Source of the DNA: Loigolactobacillus bifermentans DSM 20003
GTDB taxonomy: Bacteria > Bacillota > Bacilli > Lactobacillales > Lactobacillaceae
NCBI RefSeq assembly: GCF_001434575.1
Contig: NZ_AZDA01000140.1
Coordinates: 87,160-146,298, forward strand
Direction of reading: 5' to 3'
Length of the DNA stretch: 59,139 nt
A program made the translations under genes and the position numbers. This document shows, piece by piece, positions 3,001-59,139 of this stretch (position 1 is its first letter; each line of letters opens with the position of its first letter). The notes under the pieces are model-generated. The model was given only the letters and a program-made list of their open reading frames with translations, did not search any database and was not told where the DNA came from.

Positions 3001-4840
3001 CACGGTGGCTTGGTTCGTACCGTCATAAGTTTTGTGCACCGTTGGCACAGTAATGGTCACCGGTGCTTTGGTAATCGTTAATTGACCGGCCATTGTGGTA
3101 AAGCTGTAGTTGGCGTTGGCCGTTGGTGTGACATCAATCGTGTAAGTGCCGGCATTTTTAGCGGCGCTAAGATCTGTTACAGTGTATGTGACTGCCTCGC
3201 CATGGGTCGGTACCCCACTGATCAGCGGGGTGAGGTCGCCGGTATAGGCCGTTCCGTCGTAAACTTTGCTGGCACTAACGGCGGTTAGGCTAACCGGGGC
3301 TGGCGTGATCATCAATGCCCCTGCGGCAACCGATGTTGCGGTTAACGCGTAATTGGTGTTAGCGGCCTGTAATTTGGCTAAACCAGCCGCACTTAAGTTA
3401 ACGTCATAGCTGCCGACGTTTTCACCTGCGGTGCGGGTAAAGTCAGCGGCAGTCCAATCCGTGGGTTCCGTTAACCCATTTGTTAAGGTCACGGTATACA
3501 CGGTTGGATCCGTGCTGGCATCATTATCGTAAACTTTGGTGTTGGTGCTCACTTGTAGACTGCCGTCTTGAACAGGCGCCGGGGTGATGGTCAACAGGCC
3601 GTTACTGGCCGTCACCGTATAATTTGGATTGGCGTCAAGGGTCACCGCAATGGCGTAACTGCCCACCTGGGTATTGGCGCTAACGTCTGCTAACTGATAG
3701 TTCAAGGCCGCGCCGTTGGCTGGAAGACCGGTAATCGTTGGGATCAAAGCGTCGGTATAGCCTTTGCCATCATACGTTTTTGAAACCGTTGGCCCACTGA
3801 TCTGCACTAAAGCCGGGCTAATGGTTAAGTCATTGCTAGCGGTGGTGATTTGATAGTTAGGATTGTCACCTAACACCACGTTAATGGCATAGGTACCAGC
3901 ATTCACATCGGCACTCACATCAGTTAAGCTGTAGGCCAAGGTGTCGCCGGCAGCCACATTGCCACTGATGCTGGCGGTTAACGCCTTGGTATACGCGGTG
4001 CCATCGTAAATTTTAGTCACCCCATTAGCTGTGATCGTCACCGGTGCCGCTGTGATCGTTAAAGCACCGGCTGTGACACCATCAACGGTGACGTTAGGAT
4101 TAAGAGCCTGCAATTTGGCAATGCCACTGGCACTTAAGGTTACCGCATACTGGCCCACATTTTGGCTAGTAATACCAGTGGTATCAAAATCGCTGGCGGT
4201 CCAAGTGGTGGGTGCGGTTAAGCCATCGGCTAAGGTCACCGTGTAAGTGGTCGGATCGGTACTGGCATCGTTGTCGTAAACTTTGCTAGCACTGCCGACG
4301 GTAACCGCCCCGGCCGTTAAAGTCGCTGGCGTAATGGTTAACTGACCGGACTGCGTGGTAATGGTATAGTTGCTGTTGGCTGTTGGGTCAGCATTGACGT
4401 TAATAAGATAGTCGCCCGCAGCTACCGCCGTGCTGACATCTGTCAAACTGTAAACAGGGGTCACGCCTTTAGTCGGTAGGTTGCTTACGCTGGCCGTTAA
4501 GGTCGCCGTGTAGGCCTTGCCATCGTACGTTTTGCTGACGGTTGGCGCCGTGATCGTAATGGCAGCTGGGGTGATTTGGAACAACCCATTTTGCACATCA
4601 CTGGCGTCAAAGGTAAAGGTTGGGTTTGCCGCTTGTAACTTGGCCAGCCCACTGGCGCTTAACGTCACTTGGTACAGGCCAACATTTTGACTGGTCACCC
4701 CGCTGAGATCAAAGTCAGCGGCGGTTAAGGTTGGCACCACAAAGTCTGAATATTGGCTTGGGGCCAACACGGTGAATGTGGTGGGATCGGTGCTGGCATC
4801 GTTGTCGTAAACTTTGCTGGCACCTTGCACCACAATGCTG
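1..4840 (-). repeat. Tandem MBG (KxYDG) domain array
   Basis: About 19 KxYD motifs recur every 240-280 bp. Two domain types alternate, one opening with K(V/T)YDGD..TDP and one with TKVYDGK.Y.A.LTA. At the left edge a higher-order repeat of two domains is clear: the same segment starts at 41, 560, 1079 and 1601, a period of 519-522 bp (173-174 residues). The copies nearest the left edge are the most alike, suggesting recent expansion at the C-terminal side. Confidence 0.8.
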
Positions 4841-16753: not shown

Positions 16754-18562
16754 TTAGGCCGTGAGTGGTAATTGCGGCTTGCCAAAATAATAGCCTTGGA
16801 AATACTGAATGCCTAGGTGTTGCGCCCAGGTGACTTCATCTGGGAATTCTAGGCCTTCTAAAATAAAGCTAATTTCCTGGCGCTGGGCAATGTCCAGCCA
16901 AAATTGAATGCGTTCGTGAATGCGCGCGCTGCTTTCTTGACGGCGTAGATTTTGAATGGCAAATTTCACACCATTGACGTAAGGCAATAACTTCTGAACC
17001 AATTCATAACTGTTATCGCTGCCCACATCGTCAATATAGATCAAAATCCCGGCTTCCCGGTACAACGCGGATACCCGGCGCATTACGGTTACGCTGGGCA
17101 CATCGGTGATCTCAATGGTCAGTTGTTGCGGACCGCGGCCGGAATGCATATAACTCACCAAGGATTTCGCCGTTTCAATGTCACTAAATTGGGCTAAGGT
17201 TAAATTAACGTTCACCCGTTGCACGTTTAACACCGTTAAGGCTTGACTGATCAACACAATTTGTTTATCCACGGCAATGTCAAACCGCGCCGGTAACCGC
17301 CACTGGTCACTTTGACTGTCGTAGCGACGTAACAATAATTCAGCCGCCCAATGGACGCTGCCTTGGGCATTGACCCCTTCGATGGGCTGGGCAAAATAAG
17401 CAAGTTGGTTCACATCTACATCCCGGTCATACGTCGTGGTTTGGCCTTCCACCGTTAACACATCGTGACCATGGATCTTGCTAATGTACAAGCTATCGTC
17501 AGCCCGTTTGTACAGGCTGTCCACGCTTTGATCCTGTTCATGTAAGGTGGTGACCCCGGCTGACAACGTTACCTGCGCCGTGGTGTGTTCCACTGGAAAA
17601 GCGGTGGTGCGTACCTGCGTCAAGCATTGATTCACCACGGTAATGGCCTGGGCTAAGCCCACTTTAGGCAAAAGCAGCGAAAACTCCTCGCCGCCTAAAT
17701 GGTTCAACTGATACGCCACTTGGGTTTGGTCTAACACCTGCCGCAACGTTTGGGTCACCGCCATTAATGTGGCATTGCCGGCCATGTGACCGTAAGCTTG
17801 ATTAAATTGTTTAAAATGATCCACATCAAATGCCGCCACAGTTAACGGTTCGTGGTGCACTTGGGCGCCGCGAAATAAACTGGCCGCCACCGCCCGGTCC
17901 TGGGCCACGGTGGTGTCATTGACCACATCATCGTAATCGATCAGGGCCTGCATTTGTTGATCCAATAAAAATTTCCGGTGGGTACGCGCCCAAAATAAGG
18001 CCACAAACGTACAGATCACCAAGTACATCCCGGCTGCCTGCCAGGCCAGTTGCGCTGTAAACGGCGCCCACGTCACATCCAACCAGAAACTGAACACCAT
18101 GCTCACCGTGATCACAAATATCCAATGGGGCGTGTGCCGCAACATGTGATGGGTGCGCCGAATCAACAAGAGATTCACAAGCAGTAACACCAATAACGGC
18201 CAATTACGGGTCAGCGTACTGCCACGTTGGAGACCCCAAATCACCACCACCCCGAGGCCACGCCAAGCATAGCCCCAATTGGTGACGGCTTCATCAAATA
18301 ACGGCAAGACAATCATGGCCACGCCGATGTTAGCTAACATATTGCTTTCCATAAAGCCCTGATAAGTACCATATTCAAATAATAAGGCCACCCCTAAAGG
18401 CAACAGCCACTGTAACACCCGATAAGTCGCGCGTAACTGCTGGGTCACTAACGTCGCTTGGCGCCACAGATAGCGCTCAAACGACACAAACCCTGTGATC
18501 AAAAACGTTGCTGCCAGGGTTTGCACGAGCCAGAGGCCTAACGGTAAATTGACTTGATCCAA
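16754..18562 (-). CDS. Membrane-bound GGDEF/EAL protein (cyclic-di-GMP turnover)
   Basis: 602 residues, TTG start at 18562 with a weak site. Residues 1-195 contain about six hydrophobic segments. A GGDEF domain follows: DVDHFK at 246-251 and the active-site GGEEF at 290-294, without an RxxD inhibitory site just before it. The usual D.LTGL.NR entry motif is degenerate (YDDVVNDTT, 210-218). The EAL domain spans about 385-602; the signature reads ELL at 408-410, but the metal-binding and catalytic set seems largely kept (N453, E484, D511-D512, K533, E569, Q589). It could make or degrade cyclic-di-GMP, or act as a sensor. It lies between two WxL operons in the same orientation. A weak hairpin overlaps the region after its stop at about 16722-16752. 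Confidence 0.92.
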   Translation of the reverse strand: MDQVNLPLGLWLVQTLAATFLITGFVSFERYLWRQATLVTQQLRATYRVLQWLLPLGVALLFEYGTYQGFMESNMLANIGVAMIVLPLFDEAVTNWGYAWRGLGVVVIWGLQRGSTLTRNWPLLVLLLVNLLLIRRTHHMLRHTPHWIFVITVSMVFSFWLDVTWAPFTAQLAWQAAGMYLVICTFVALFWARTHRKFLLDQQMQALIDYDDVVNDTTVAQDRAVAASLFRGAQVHHEPLTVAAFDVDHFKQFNQAYGHMAGNATLMAVTQTLRQVLDQTQVAYQLNHLGGEEFSLLLPKVGLAQAITVVNQCLTQVRTTAFPVEHTTAQVTLSAGVTTLHEQDQSVDSLYKRADDSLYISKIHGHDVLTVEGQTTTYDRDVDVNQLAYFAQPIEGVNAQGSVHWAAELLLRRYDSQSDQWRLPARFDIAVDKQIVLISQALTVLNVQRVNVNLTLAQFSDIETAKSLVSYMHSGRGPQQLTIEITDVPSVTVMRRVSALYREAGILIYIDDVGSDNSYELVQKLLPYVNGVKFAIQNLRRQESSARIHERIQFWLDIAQRQEISFILEGLEFPDEVTWAQHLGIQYFQGYYFGKPQLPLTA

Positions 18563-18693
18563 GTTTGAGACCTACTTTCTAATGCGCTCGTTTTCCAAAA
18601 ACGACATCTTATATCAGACAAAAAGCTTTAAAACTATCTAATTTTAGTATACGGCACTTTTCAGAAATTTAGTAGCGCAACATTAACCAATTA

Positions 18694-32354: not shown

Positions 32355-32642
32355 GTGTACACTGAAGCCGTCACAGTCGATCTGGATGCTTTTATCGCTG
32401 AAATGATGCAAGACGCCAGTCATCGTAAAGCCATCAATGCCGAAAAAGCAAAACTAGCAAGTGCCATTGCTGTTTTAGAAGCCCGGGAAGCCGCTGGACT
32501 TAGCCAACAAACCTTAGCGGATCAAGCGGGCCTCCCTCAAACCACTATTGCGCGAATTGAACGCGGCAACAACACCAGTATTGAGACGCTAGCGAAAATC
32601 GCCTCTGCATTAGGGAAAACCGTCTCTGTTGCACTGATTTAG
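32355..32642 (+). CDS. Orphan HigA-like XRE antitoxin
   Basis: 95 residues, GTG start at 32355; AAAGGAT lies about 15 bp upstream, a long spacing, so the start is uncertain. The sequence contains FIAEMMQDASHRKAI.AE followed by an XRE helix-turn-helix (AGLSQQTLADQAGLPQTTIARIERG..TSIETLAKIASALG), the layout of HigA-type antitoxins. No HigB-type toxin gene is visible on either side. It may be a solitary regulator or the survivor of a decayed pair. Confidence 0.8.
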   Translation: MYTEAVTVDLDAFIAEMMQDASHRKAINAEKAKLASAIAVLEAREAAGLSQQTLADQAGLPQTTIARIERGNNTSIETLAKIASALGKTVSVALI

Positions 32643-38180: not shown

Positions 38181-38211
38181 TGATTTTTCCTCCAATTTTT
38201 AAACAGCAACT

Positions 38212-38244
38212 AAAAAACCAGCTAGGCAGTCATCTAGCTGGTTT
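38212..38244 (-). terminator. Attenuator terminator in the aroA leader
   Basis: Perfect 11-bp arms AAACCAGCTAG/CTAGCTGGTTT with an 8-nt loop, followed by T residues on the minus strand, 32 bp before the aroA ATG. It lies inside the leader, so it should stop transcription unless the antiterminator forms. Confidence 0.8.
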
Positions 38245-38279
38245 CTGGTCGGTTTATCCGTATGGAAAAAAAGAATGAC

Positions 38280-38305
38280 CCAGCTAGATTCTCACGTCTA
38301 GCTGG
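38280..38305 (-). promoter_or_regulatory. Anti-terminator partner hairpin in the aroA leader
   Basis: Arms CCAGCTAGA (38305-38297) and TCTAGCTGG (38288-38280). The second arm is also perfectly complementary over 9 bp to the first arm of the terminator (38241-38233), so 1:2 plus 3:4 excludes 2:3, the classical attenuator design. Confidence 0.7.
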
Positions 38306-38351
38306 CACACAACAATAGTGGCTAAGCTTTAGACGCGAACGCGTTTTCCAG

Positions 38352-38376
38352 GCGTCCGCATCAAAGCTGCGGACGC
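38352..38376 (-). promoter_or_regulatory. Hairpin abutting the leader-peptide stop codon
   Basis: Arms AGCGTCCGCA-type (8 perfect pairs CGTCCGCA/TGCGGACG, extendable by one) start right after the leader stop. A ribosome at the stop would cover its first arm. Confidence 0.65.
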
Positions 38377-38432
38377 TAACTAAAGTAGTAGCCCCAATAA
38401 TAGGTATTAAGTTGCGTAAGTTGTGTGGTCAT
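38376..38432 (-). CDS. aroA leader peptide (aromatic-rich, 18 residues)
   Basis: ATG at 38432 follows GAGAGGAA by 7 bp and lies about 25 nt after the expected transcription start. The frame encodes MTTQLTQLNTYYWGYYFS and a TAG stop. Seven of the last eight codons before Ser include Tyr (four), Trp and Phe; these are the end products of the pathway to which the downstream gene belongs. With the mutually exclusive hairpins downstream it looks like a ribosome-stalling sensor: slow translation at low charged tRNA-Tyr/Trp/Phe would favour aroA transcription. In Firmicutes such genes are more often controlled by T-boxes, and no T-box motif is visible here. Confidence 0.8.
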   Translation of the reverse strand: MTTQLTQLNTYYWGYYFS

Positions 38433-38554: not shown

Positions 38555-38708
38555 GCCCTCCGGAAAAGCGGGGCTGGAACGCTTGTGGCTCGCTTCAGAG
38601 CTAACTTTGGCGAAGATCGCCAAAGTGGATCTCTTCCGTCTCGCGTGACTACTAGGCGGTAAATCGCCAAGTATCACCGTCACGGCTGAGCCCGCTTTTC
38701 CTCCGGGC
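38555..38708 (+). ncRNA. Structured RNA candidate, element 1
   Basis: Closing stem GGAAAAGCGGG (38562-38572) with CCCGCTTTTCC (38691-38701), extended by GCCC/GGGC across a 3x3 internal loop. Inside the stem the 5' side reads GGGGCTGGAACGCT and the 3' side GCTGAGCCC, the same terminal motif as in element 2, where the stem sequence is different. Internal hairpins: CTTTGGCGA/TCGCCAAAG (38605-38625) and GGCG/CGCC within GTGAC/GTCAC (38645-38683). No ORF. Strand is inferred from the shared motif. Confidence 0.6.
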
Positions 38709-38723
38709 TTGAATAGTACACCG

Positions 38724-38791
38724 TTAACAGATTCATGACAAACAACATTAAAACGGCTCGCAAGACGCTTGAATAACAGTCAATCTGTTAA
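38724..38791. repeat. Inverted repeat downstream of element 1
   Basis: TTAACAGATT and its exact complement AATCTGTTAA, 48 bp apart. Purpose unknown; it could be part of element 1 or a separate site. Confidence 0.4.
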
Positions 38792-38857
38792 GTGGCACTT
38801 TAAAAATATGCATCAAATTTTAGGCAATCACATTTGGCTTTCAAACGTCTCGCTATC

Positions 38858-38900
38858 AAAAAACGTGCGTTAGACTATTATGCCAATAATCTAACGCACG
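38858..38900 (-). terminator. Terminator downstream of aroC and element 2
   Basis: Perfect arms CGTGCGTTAGA/TCTAACGCACG with further ATTAT/ATAAT pairing, followed on the minus strand by six T. It closes minus-strand transcription through aroC and element 2. Confidence 0.85.
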
Positions 38901-39014
38901 CTTCAACATTCATATTTTTTAGACAGAAATTGCTCGCCCACTTGATACCGGCAAGTATAGGCTACATAGCAGCTTACGGCTAATTCTGATGACAACAACA
39001 AATTTAAGTCCGAA

Positions 39015-39424
39015 GGCACAAGTGGGCTCAGCGCCATGTTTCTTGCGGGCGGTCTTCCCACAAGAATGGACAGCGCCCGACAATTTTAGCTTTGCGTTAG
39101 CAAAGTATCCCTAGTGCACTTAGTAGCGCCATGTTTCTTGCGGGCGGTCTTCCCACAAGAATGGACAGCGCCCGGCAATTTTAGCTTTGCGTTAGCAAAG
39201 TATCCCTAGTGCACTTAGTAGCGCCATGTTTCTTGCGGGTGGTTTCCCCACAAGAATGGACAGCGCCCGGCAATCTTAACTTTGCGTTAGCAAAGTATCC
39301 CCAGTGTACTTAGTAGCCTTGAAATTGTCGTTAGCGATTTATCGCTTACGACAAGGTCGAGCTTTGAAACAAGTGATTTTCTTGGTTCAAAGTCGGCCCG
39401 CAGCGTTCCAGCCCCACTTGTGCC
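39015..39424 (-). ncRNA. Large structured RNA candidate, element 2
   Basis: About 410 nt closed by a perfect 12-bp stem, GGCACAAGTGGG with CCCACTTGTGCC. Read on the minus strand it opens GGGGCTGGAACGCT and closes GCTGAGCCC, as in element 1. Internal hairpins include TTGTCGT..AGCGA/TCGCT..ACGACAA (39325-39354), CTTTGAA..CAAG paired with CTTG..TTCAAAG (about 39362-39393), and three tandem domains. The strand is supported by G-U pairs: TTCTTGTGGG pairs fully with CCCGCAAGAA on the minus strand, while the plus strand would have C-A mismatches. It starts 29 bp after the aroC stop, so it may be the aroC 3' UTR or processed from it. It ends in the terminator at 38858. Confidence 0.7.
39030..39314 (-). 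repeat. Three tandem 95-bp hairpin domains inside element 2
   Basis: Units start at 39030, 39125 and 39220, exactly 95 bp apart and nearly identical. Each has a closing helix GGCGCT/GGCGCT (G-U at both ends), a 10-bp stem TTCTTGTGGG/CCCGCAAGAA with a 7-nt loop, and a linker hairpin CTTTGC/GCAAAG with a 4-nt loop. Confidence 0.85.
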
Positions 39425-39452
39425 GTAGGACGACTACCAACGCCAGCTTGGA

Positions 39453-58902: not shown

Positions 58903-59139
58903 ACGAGGAGGCCCATTTTCGCCCGAGGGAATGAACATCCTCCGGAAATAAGATTTTGCGAGAGCAAAATAGACACTAGAGACTTTAGGAGGAGCCATGT
59001 GTCCTGCGGGGTGAACTGCCCCCACAAGACTGGACATCCTCCGAAAATAAGATTTTGCGAAAGCAAAATAGACCTTAAATCACTTAGGAGGAGCCATGTG
59101 TCCTGCGGCGTGGGTTGACGCCACAAGACTGGACATCCT
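58903..59139 (-). ncRNA. Structured repeat RNA candidate, element 3 (truncated by window end)
   Basis: Tandem units start near 58906, 58987 and 59086; the last full period is 99 bp. Read on the minus strand each has a closing helix GGAGGA/TCCTCC, a hairpin TCTTGTGGGG/CCCCGCAGGA with G-U pairs, and a linker hairpin ATTTTGC/GCAAAAT with a 4-nt loop. The layout and the flanking words (TGTCCA before, ACATGG after, CTAAGTG in the linker) match the domains in element 2, while the paired bases differ. The rightmost copy near the permease stop (58906-58986) is shorter and diverged. The terminal motif of the family would be beyond the edge. Confidence 0.6.

Follow-up and report, generated by a model that had tools for sequence, protein, structure and literature searches.

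Nested, Structured Repeats at Ribosome-Binding Sites in Loigolactobacillus and a Few Related Genera: Probable Non-Autonomous Mobile Elements

Introduction

Small bacterial repeats are usually thought to persist where the harm that they do is small. REP and REPIN hairpins are moved by RAYT (Y1) transposases, and the large structured RNAs GOLLD, ROOL, OLE, HEARO, and raiA are Rfam families, some of which are hosted by lactobacilli. The described repeats nearest in kind to those reported here are BOX, RUP, and SPRITE of Streptococcus pneumoniae, which we set beside them by description and not by sequence; these are enriched in the spaces between convergent genes, and two of them, BOX and RUP, possess terminal inverted repeats and target-site duplications (PMC3049150). 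Among repeats located at start codons, the closest described are the TAACTGA heptamers of Beggiatoaceae (PMC4679880).

Within a literature coverage that left subscription journals mostly outside, no description of the present unit family was recognized, whether for these hosts or for this target. A 2008 survey of stem-loop families names, in the part available, one Lactobacillus, L. johnsonii (PMC2267715); the accessible portion of a review of miniature inverted-repeat transposable elements (MITEs) contains no mention of lactobacilli, nesting, Shine-Dalgarno (SD) sequences, or ribosome binding (PMC10969869); and that of the genome paper on L. backii mentions repeats only in connection with CRISPR (PMC9967799).

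The DNA analyzed here (the window) is a stretch of 59,139 nucleotides from Loigolactobacillus bifermentans DSM 20003. A first-pass annotation made from the letters alone had drawn attention to structured elements between aroA and aroC, which we have compared with the rest of this genome, with its relatives, and with known RNA and repeat families.

Results

A Composite of Two Convergent Half-Elements

Two opposed elements with a common frame lie between aroA and aroC, as the first-pass annotation had described (Table 1). The frame, GGGGCTGGAACGCT ... GCTGAGCCC, is enclosed in each by a closing stem, whose arms are GGAAAAGCGGG/CCCGCTTTTCC in the left half and GGCACAAGTGGG/CCCACTTGTGCC in the right. 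The three tandem 95-bp domains that had been noticed in one element only are likewise present, confined to the right half, with none in the left. A 14-mer of the frame has two exact occurrences in the window and, with up to two mismatches, three matches against 0.33 expected; a 901-nt stretch folds with z = -7.9 relative to shuffles (0 of 20 as good).

Table 1. Positions in the window of the parts of the composite and of a second array of units
Feature	Positions	Strand	Remarks
Left half-element	38555..38708	plus	closing stem 38555-38572 / 38691-38708; inner hairpins, without unit
Spacer between halves	38709..39007	not assigned	weak conservation among copies; imperfect hairpin 38861-38903
Right half-element	39008..39431	minus	frame of left half in opposite orientation; closing stem 39008-39026 / 39413-39431
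Unit copy 1	39030..39124	minus (strand favored by G-U pairs)	~95 nt
Unit copy 2	39125..39219	minus	99% identical to copy 1
Unit copy 3	39220..39314	minus	92% identical to copy 1
Inner hairpins typical of right halves	39315..39412	minus	5' part of right half on the minus strand
Second unit array	58915..59139	minus (folded strand)	one truncated, one full, and one window-cut copy

Searched with blast against the genome to which the window belongs (G000; 3.13 Mb, 147 contigs), the left half has matches at eight places and the right half at 32. All eight left-half loci, one of them truncated by a contig end, have, at a distance of some hundred bases and in the opposite sense, sequence of a right half or of a unit; the two elements are therefore convergent arms of one composite, and not, as the first-pass annotation had supposed, independent large RNAs of one kind. 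The ends of the halves are inverted, similar but imperfect, and the number of units inside halves of one frame is 0, 2, or 3. Two loci, C29 and C53, carry what are by eye recent copies of the entire composite, alike through the spacer too.

In the closing stem of each half the pairing is maintained and the sequence is not, a proposal made at the outset from differing stems and now extended to 11 half-elements. In each, no foreign 3' arm pairs better with the 5' arm than its own does, and the only two ties involve the stems of C6 and C64, which are nearly identical; mean pairing is -26.8 kcal/mol for own arms versus -14.7 kcal/mol for swapped ones (0 of 20,000 permutations as good), in a set preselected by an own-pairing cut-off of -14 kcal/mol, so that weak or unreadable stems lie outside the count. 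The 11 remain from 15 arm pairs found, after removal of three chance pairings and one duplicate (C53, with the same arms as C29b); the arm patterns missed several right halves, the halves of C29c, and the left half of C64.

The elements belong to no named family as far as Rfam 15 (4,227 families) extends, in keeping with the first impression: no match at gathering score was obtained in the window, the region alone gave only four chance-like matches at E up to 10, and across 19 related loci nothing inside the elements reached the gathering score, with three T-box leaders lying outside them. A large structured noncoding RNA family of the GOLLD or ROOL type, in which the halves are ornate RNA domains and the unit an RNA module, would nevertheless agree with the covarying stems, the modular and multibranched fold, and the preference of G-U pairs for one strand. 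We consider such a family very unlikely, given the absence of an Rfam match and the opposed halves, which leave no single transcript holding both in the same folded sense; many copies, moreover, are short arrays at gene starts, where they fold on the strand antisense to the gene, and the sites compared below are not conserved among species.

Structure, Covariation, and Strand of the Unit

The 95-bp domain is a copy of a separate repeat unit of ~100 nt whose copies are for the most part in other places, frequently arrayed at the starts of genes. An alignment of 36 copies gives a structure of P3 (CCTCC with GGAGG), P4 (TTTGC..GCAAA), and a hairpin A. The ends of hairpin A do not vary, reading GNCCATT...AACATGGC in most copies, whereas its stem covaries freely; the unit has a second, small hairpin as well. 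In most copies one end of the unit is the complement of the SD sequence (CCTCC) and is able to pair with the internal GGAGG, although this P3 pairing is imperfect (87% of cells). Over the whole alignment 94.2% of 824 cells are paired versus 84.3% in shuffles, 11 of 23 pairs have changed on both sides, and covariation is 0.300 versus 0.145 shuffled (0 of 500), with slid structures at 0.095 or below.

A cross-genus alignment comprises 27 hairpins from several species over 42 gap-free columns; they were drawn from 40 stretches, of which 13 were removed (nine false, one on the wrong strand, two of other length, and one near-duplicate). Here covariation is 0.330 versus 0.129 shuffled (0 of 500); of the 12 pairs, six are invariant (all four in helix 1 and two in helix 2), and the remaining six have changed on both sides. 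Two of five measures do not stand out clearly from the shuffles, which were as high in 442 of 500 cases for further pair types and in 29 of 500 for double-change pairs. The first-pass annotation had looked to covariation above phylogenetic background as support for its elements; the comparison here is with shuffles, which both alignments of the unit exceed.

The same annotation had held that G-U pairs fit only one strand; this stands as a strong bias in the family of the inner domain, but it is not absolute. On the frame strand, which for the right half in the window is the minus strand, mismatches of the G.T and A.C types number 83 and 16 in distinct rows from 76 units of this genome and 136 and 28 in those from 102 units of relatives, counts that take related copies as independent and come with alignments (A4 and A5) built by a model favoring G-U. 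In the MAFFT alignment A2, built without that model, U-G occurs at two positions of a helix, in 18 of the 36 copies at one and in 7 at the other, which makes A-C on the opposite strand.

Quasipalindrome correction is an established process, and it would yield pairing without sequence conservation. On this account the repeats would be ordinary DNA palindromes, one arm of which is copied to the other by template switching or gene conversion without selection for folding. A-C mismatches should then be about as frequent as G-T mismatches on each strand, contrary to the counts just given, and the docking and fixed orientation of the units would be left unexplained; an origin of this type appears highly improbable.

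The unit is short, noncoding, and multicopy, and has no transposase gene inside, features by which MITEs are recognized. It is without a terminal inverted repeat, the ends read from a filled and an empty site (site J, below) being different (ACTTCGC... and ...CATGGC).

Docking at Ribosome-Binding Sites

Matches to a covariance model of the unit (R1) were collected from 107 loci picked by model match and not by position, with 76 matches in 49 loci of this genome; other genomes, from which a subset of matches was fetched, contributed 102 matches in 58 loci. They form 118 arrays, a number that takes related copies as independent and counts at least four loci in both of two close relatives, G006 and G007. 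A co-oriented ORF start lies within 30 nt on the SD side of the unit in 70 of the 118 arrays (no SD filter), and one array has a start that close on the other side; with an SD filter applied, the numbers are 68 of 118 and zero in the other orientation. In the other 48 arrays the SD side has no start that close. Co-oriented stop codons within 30 nt on the non-SD side accompany 15 of 118 arrays, and a single array has a convergent stop on the SD side.

At docked genes the end of the unit is the gene's own SD sequence, which in this genome is usually AGGAGG; as a rule it lies a few nucleotides before the start codon. GCTGG takes the place of the SD in 11 of 36 interior units and in 0 of 36 gene-proximal ones (this genome only; Fisher test, 4e-4). 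The gene-proximal set consists of 37 terminal units near an ORF start minus L025, whose ORF begins within another unit that the model had missed. SD sequences were counted in 33 of these 36, and L030 (AGGAGG) and L102 (AGGGGG) are SD-like on reading; L007 is no real gene start, which leaves 35 real gene-proximal units, whereas the Fisher test used 36. The units of the second array in the window (Table 1) end in AGGAGG beside GCCATG; the gene downstream, on the plus strand with its start beyond the window, is ABC-transporter binding protein-like by inspection.

Docked genes, assigned by inspection of their N-termini, include fabF, accC, plsX, radC, and GyrB/ParE-like and GyrA/ParC-like genes in this genome, and era, prfA, mutS, and thioredoxin in G005; some of them are probably essential, and no common pathway is evident. 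Among the docked genes read in G005 (17) and in this genome (36) there is one clear pair of orthologs, a CamS-like lipoprotein (65% over 380 aa), and two further pairs are only distantly similar. Because the CamS-like gene carries units in three species, G006 included (L092, L112, and L136), part of the docking may be old or functional. It is the only docking site seen in common beyond the close pair G006/G007.

The exact position at the start codon could also be that of a cis-regulatory 5' leader, in which the unit controls translation by pairing of the SD with its internal complement, or through a translated mini-ORF; most units contain the SD complement, in 58 of 89 the unit's own ATG is preceded by an SD-like stretch, and one gene type is docked in three species. 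In docked arrays, however, the strand favored by G-U pairs is antisense to the gene, so that the docked units do not suggest a leader RNA. Neither proposed mechanism found support when tested. Predicted SD accessibility is 0.35 for 35 docked genes versus 0.38 for 13 control genes (p = 0.47), and masking of the anti-SD raises it only from 0.35 to 0.45 (34 genes); the mini-ORF (GCCATG after AGGAGG, ~17 codons, ending in, e.g., MDILRK) is in a frame that stays open beyond the anti-SD in 47 of 89 units, and each of the other two frames does so more often (71 and 69 of 89). With the exception of the CamS-like gene, the position is not conserved at orthologs (aroC, plsX, and thrB in eight genomes, below). 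Together with the variety of the docked genes and the single clear ortholog, these results make a leader distinctly unlikely.

Pediococcus has a related but distinct SD-docked repeat, GGACATCCGTA..TTTTGC..GCAAAA..AGGAGC (L076, ~2110-2450; L077, ~3370-3750), directly preceding guaB-like and surface-protein-like genes.

Filled and Empty Sites

An AroC query was used to compare the aroC-aroA region in the eight genomes of the genus. From the aroC stop codon to the likely aroA ATG the distance is 10-34 nt in all seven other genomes and ~1.27 kb in this one, which identifies the composite as an insertion. An array of units stands upstream of plsX in one of the eight genomes (G000 only, by eye); of the seven others, six show a short interval behind the upstream gene, and G002 has a different repeat there. 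Upstream of thrB, units are visible in two of the eight, G006 and G007 (by eye over ~520 nt; one thrB-like gene viewed).

Between the composite and aroA there is an 18-codon ORF, MTTQLTQLNTYYWGYYFS (window 38376-38432, minus strand), preceded by promoter-like sequence and followed by inverted repeats (window 38200-38330), the last of which runs into a series of Ts. Judged by its sequence, this region resembles an attenuator leader through which aromatic amino acids would control aroA; the short aroC-aroA gaps of the seven relatives offer no room for such a leader.

G006 and G007 are ~92% identical across most syntenic stretches. Among 14 breakpoints between them chosen from a blast table, A, B, F, H, and J were judged to be clear insertions, whereas G is a difference in copy number and the rest are other repeats or ambiguous. 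At site H, G006 contains a ~800-nt composite (two opposed halves plus a unit) that is absent in G007. At site J, G006 reads AGATTCTGAGGATTAG, and G007 has the same sequence plus a ~99-nt unit with TCT on each side, inside another repeat. The bases common to both flanks of a unit vary by site (TCT, CTCC, or A), and since there is also no terminal inverted repeat, no single transposase family explains the unit. CTAG is duplicated only at a separate, GAGTGTTTGAAAAAGC-ended repeat, at one site (site B). All of these comparisons are between species, each represented by one genome; the compared sites are lineage-specific, as is more readily expected of mobile repeats than of a functional RNA that is conserved.

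Nesting and Flanking Sequences

Units nest in GAGTGTTTGAAAAAGC-ended repeats, in half-elements, and in one another. Left halves contain a unit between GCTTC and GCTCC where other copies are unit-free, and by eye one unit lies within the hairpin loop of another (L212). Docked units often have CCTCC on both sides, and in the copies seen an internal segment, the putative guide, covaries with the flank (CCTCC/GGAGG, CCAGC/GCTGG, CCTTC/GAAGG, and CCGGC/GCCGG). A mobile hairpin might home by base pairing of its internal GGAGG with CCTCC in the target strand and so regenerate the ribosome-binding site, its guide being used as in single-strand transposons or introns; we regard homing of this kind as unlikely.

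Several other repeats were seen in these genomes. A ~117-nt repeat in G007 (L149, ~18545-18665), absent in G006, ends in GGAGTGTTTGGAAAAGCC / GGCTTTTTCCAAACACACC and is flanked on either side by CTAG; it is MITE-like and of the kind that hosts nested units. Several species also share another hairpin module, which reads TGTCGAT.GGACTAAG ... AAGTCCAAGTCGC or nearly so (G007 C20 ~32380-32500, i.e., L155; also L048, L049, L079, and L080); it is inserted in a half-element in G007 and not in G006. Single units in L043, L045, L093, and L104 (~1500) have very similar flanks, TTCCTTTTTCAGAT / TAATTCAAAATCGGCCGGGTGCGGTGCGCAAAC or close to these, and therefore probably sit inside yet another repeat family.

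Copy Number, Host Range, and Search for a Mobilizer

There are at least 67 copies of the unit in this genome and 12-64 in each of the seven other genomes of the genus; these counts are lower bounds, because R1 matches overlap at array borders and cmsearch drops neighbors. With 67 candidates scored per genome, all 67 matched in G000 and 64 in G005; at E <= 0.001, R1 matched 9 of 60 genomes, namely all eight of the genus and one of another genus with a weak single match. A second model (R2, E <= 1e-4, 10 candidates scored per genome) matched 17 of 397 genomes of the family, belonging to 5 of 40 genera. One exact pattern names Pediococcus damnosus, P. parvulus, P. ethanolidurans, and Loigolactobacillus backii as carriers. 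The unit was absent from viral contigs (one pattern) and from plasmids and phages (blastn, two queries), and the MITE-like repeat of site B was absent from plasmids. The suggestion of the first-pass annotation that the locus may hold a mobile structured element or a repeat family typical of the clade is supported in that the family is repetitive, confined to few genera, covarying, and without an Rfam match.

The 21 unit loci listed for G005, a single contig, are divided by strand: 11 of the 12 below 1.56 Mb lie on the minus strand and all 9 above 1.6 Mb on the plus strand, a split that may be just gene orientation on two replichores.

Two enzyme families were searched as candidate mobilizers. 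Y1 transposase (PF01797) is present in two of the eight genomes of the genus and absent from the single-contig G005 with its 64 unit matches; reverse transcriptase (PF00078) is present in four of the eight, with none in the genome of the window. Neither, therefore, is a mobilizer common to the carriers. G005 has 20 reverse-transcriptase domain matches, many of them of equal score.

Discussion

We think it probable that these sequences are non-autonomous, structure-dependent mobile repeats, nested in one another, which dock at ribosome-binding sites and re-supply them. The elements between aroA and aroC are the two arms of a single composite that was inserted between these genes in this lineage, and its 95-bp domain is a copy of an independent hairpin unit of ~100 nt. 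This unit often stands immediately before a start codon in one orientation, its own end then serving as the SD sequence of the gene, and could therefore occupy a ribosome-binding site, probably even that of an essential gene, while leaving the site functional; we propose that it is tolerated there because its own end supplies the SD. Arrays would grow on their upstream side, by further insertion or by unequal recombination.

Spread would have taken place by movement and not by duplication alone. The folded strand appears to be under selection, probably since folding is needed for movement, and docking would persist because translation is preserved; the reason that units are found at such sites may be targeting by pairing, or the survival of those insertions that do no harm.

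The unit family is often found at the ribosome-binding site, where a gene is most vulnerable to disturbance, and brings with it a substitute for the sequence that it displaces. If the movement is real, this would be a simple way for a selfish element to live inside operons, and the units would be ready natural spacer-plus-SD parts for lactic acid bacteria. The locus also illustrates that intergenic covariation can stem from mobile-looking DNA and be mistaken for a large RNA.

Among known systems, the large RNAs GOLLD, ROOL, OLE, HEARO, and raiA resemble the composite in their large multibranched fold, but none matches it at the Rfam gathering score. REP and REPIN elements are similarly hairpin-based and have a paired inverted arrangement; unlike them, the present repeats belong to a genus in which just two of eight genomes have a Y1 transposase. 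MITEs, ERIC, RUP, NEMIS, and CIR, as far as they are described in the available part of PMC2229807, are comparable in size, intergenic place, hairpins, and the lack of evident coding capacity; the unit differs from them in having no terminal inverted repeat and in being SD-docked, and the bases common to its flanks vary from site to site. A separate repeat of the same genomes, that with GAGTGTTTGAAAAAGC ends, is MITE-like and has a CTAG duplication (one site).

The TAACTGA heptamers of Beggiatoaceae, in the accessible account (PMC4679880), are like the docked units in being tandem, in lying directly before start codons mostly in one orientation, and in preceding unrelated and in some cases presumably essential genes; they are, however, 7-mers that have little resemblance to an SD and lie across the position where the ribosome-binding site would be expected, whereas the unit is a covarying hairpin of 100 nt with an SD sequence.

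BOX, together with RUP and SPRITE, shares more with the unit and the composite: according to the portion of PMC3049150 available, all are small, interspersed, structured repeats of few species, insert into one another, are non-autonomous, and are thought to be parasitic, and BOX, like the composite, has outer modules around a variable number of tandem inner modules. The composite here differs from BOX in consisting of two convergent halves, and the unit differs from BOX and RUP in lacking terminal inverted repeats, in standing often at start codons in one orientation, and in supplying the SD sequence, a placement opposite to that of the pneumococcal repeats, which favor the spaces between convergent genes (PMC3049150, same portion).
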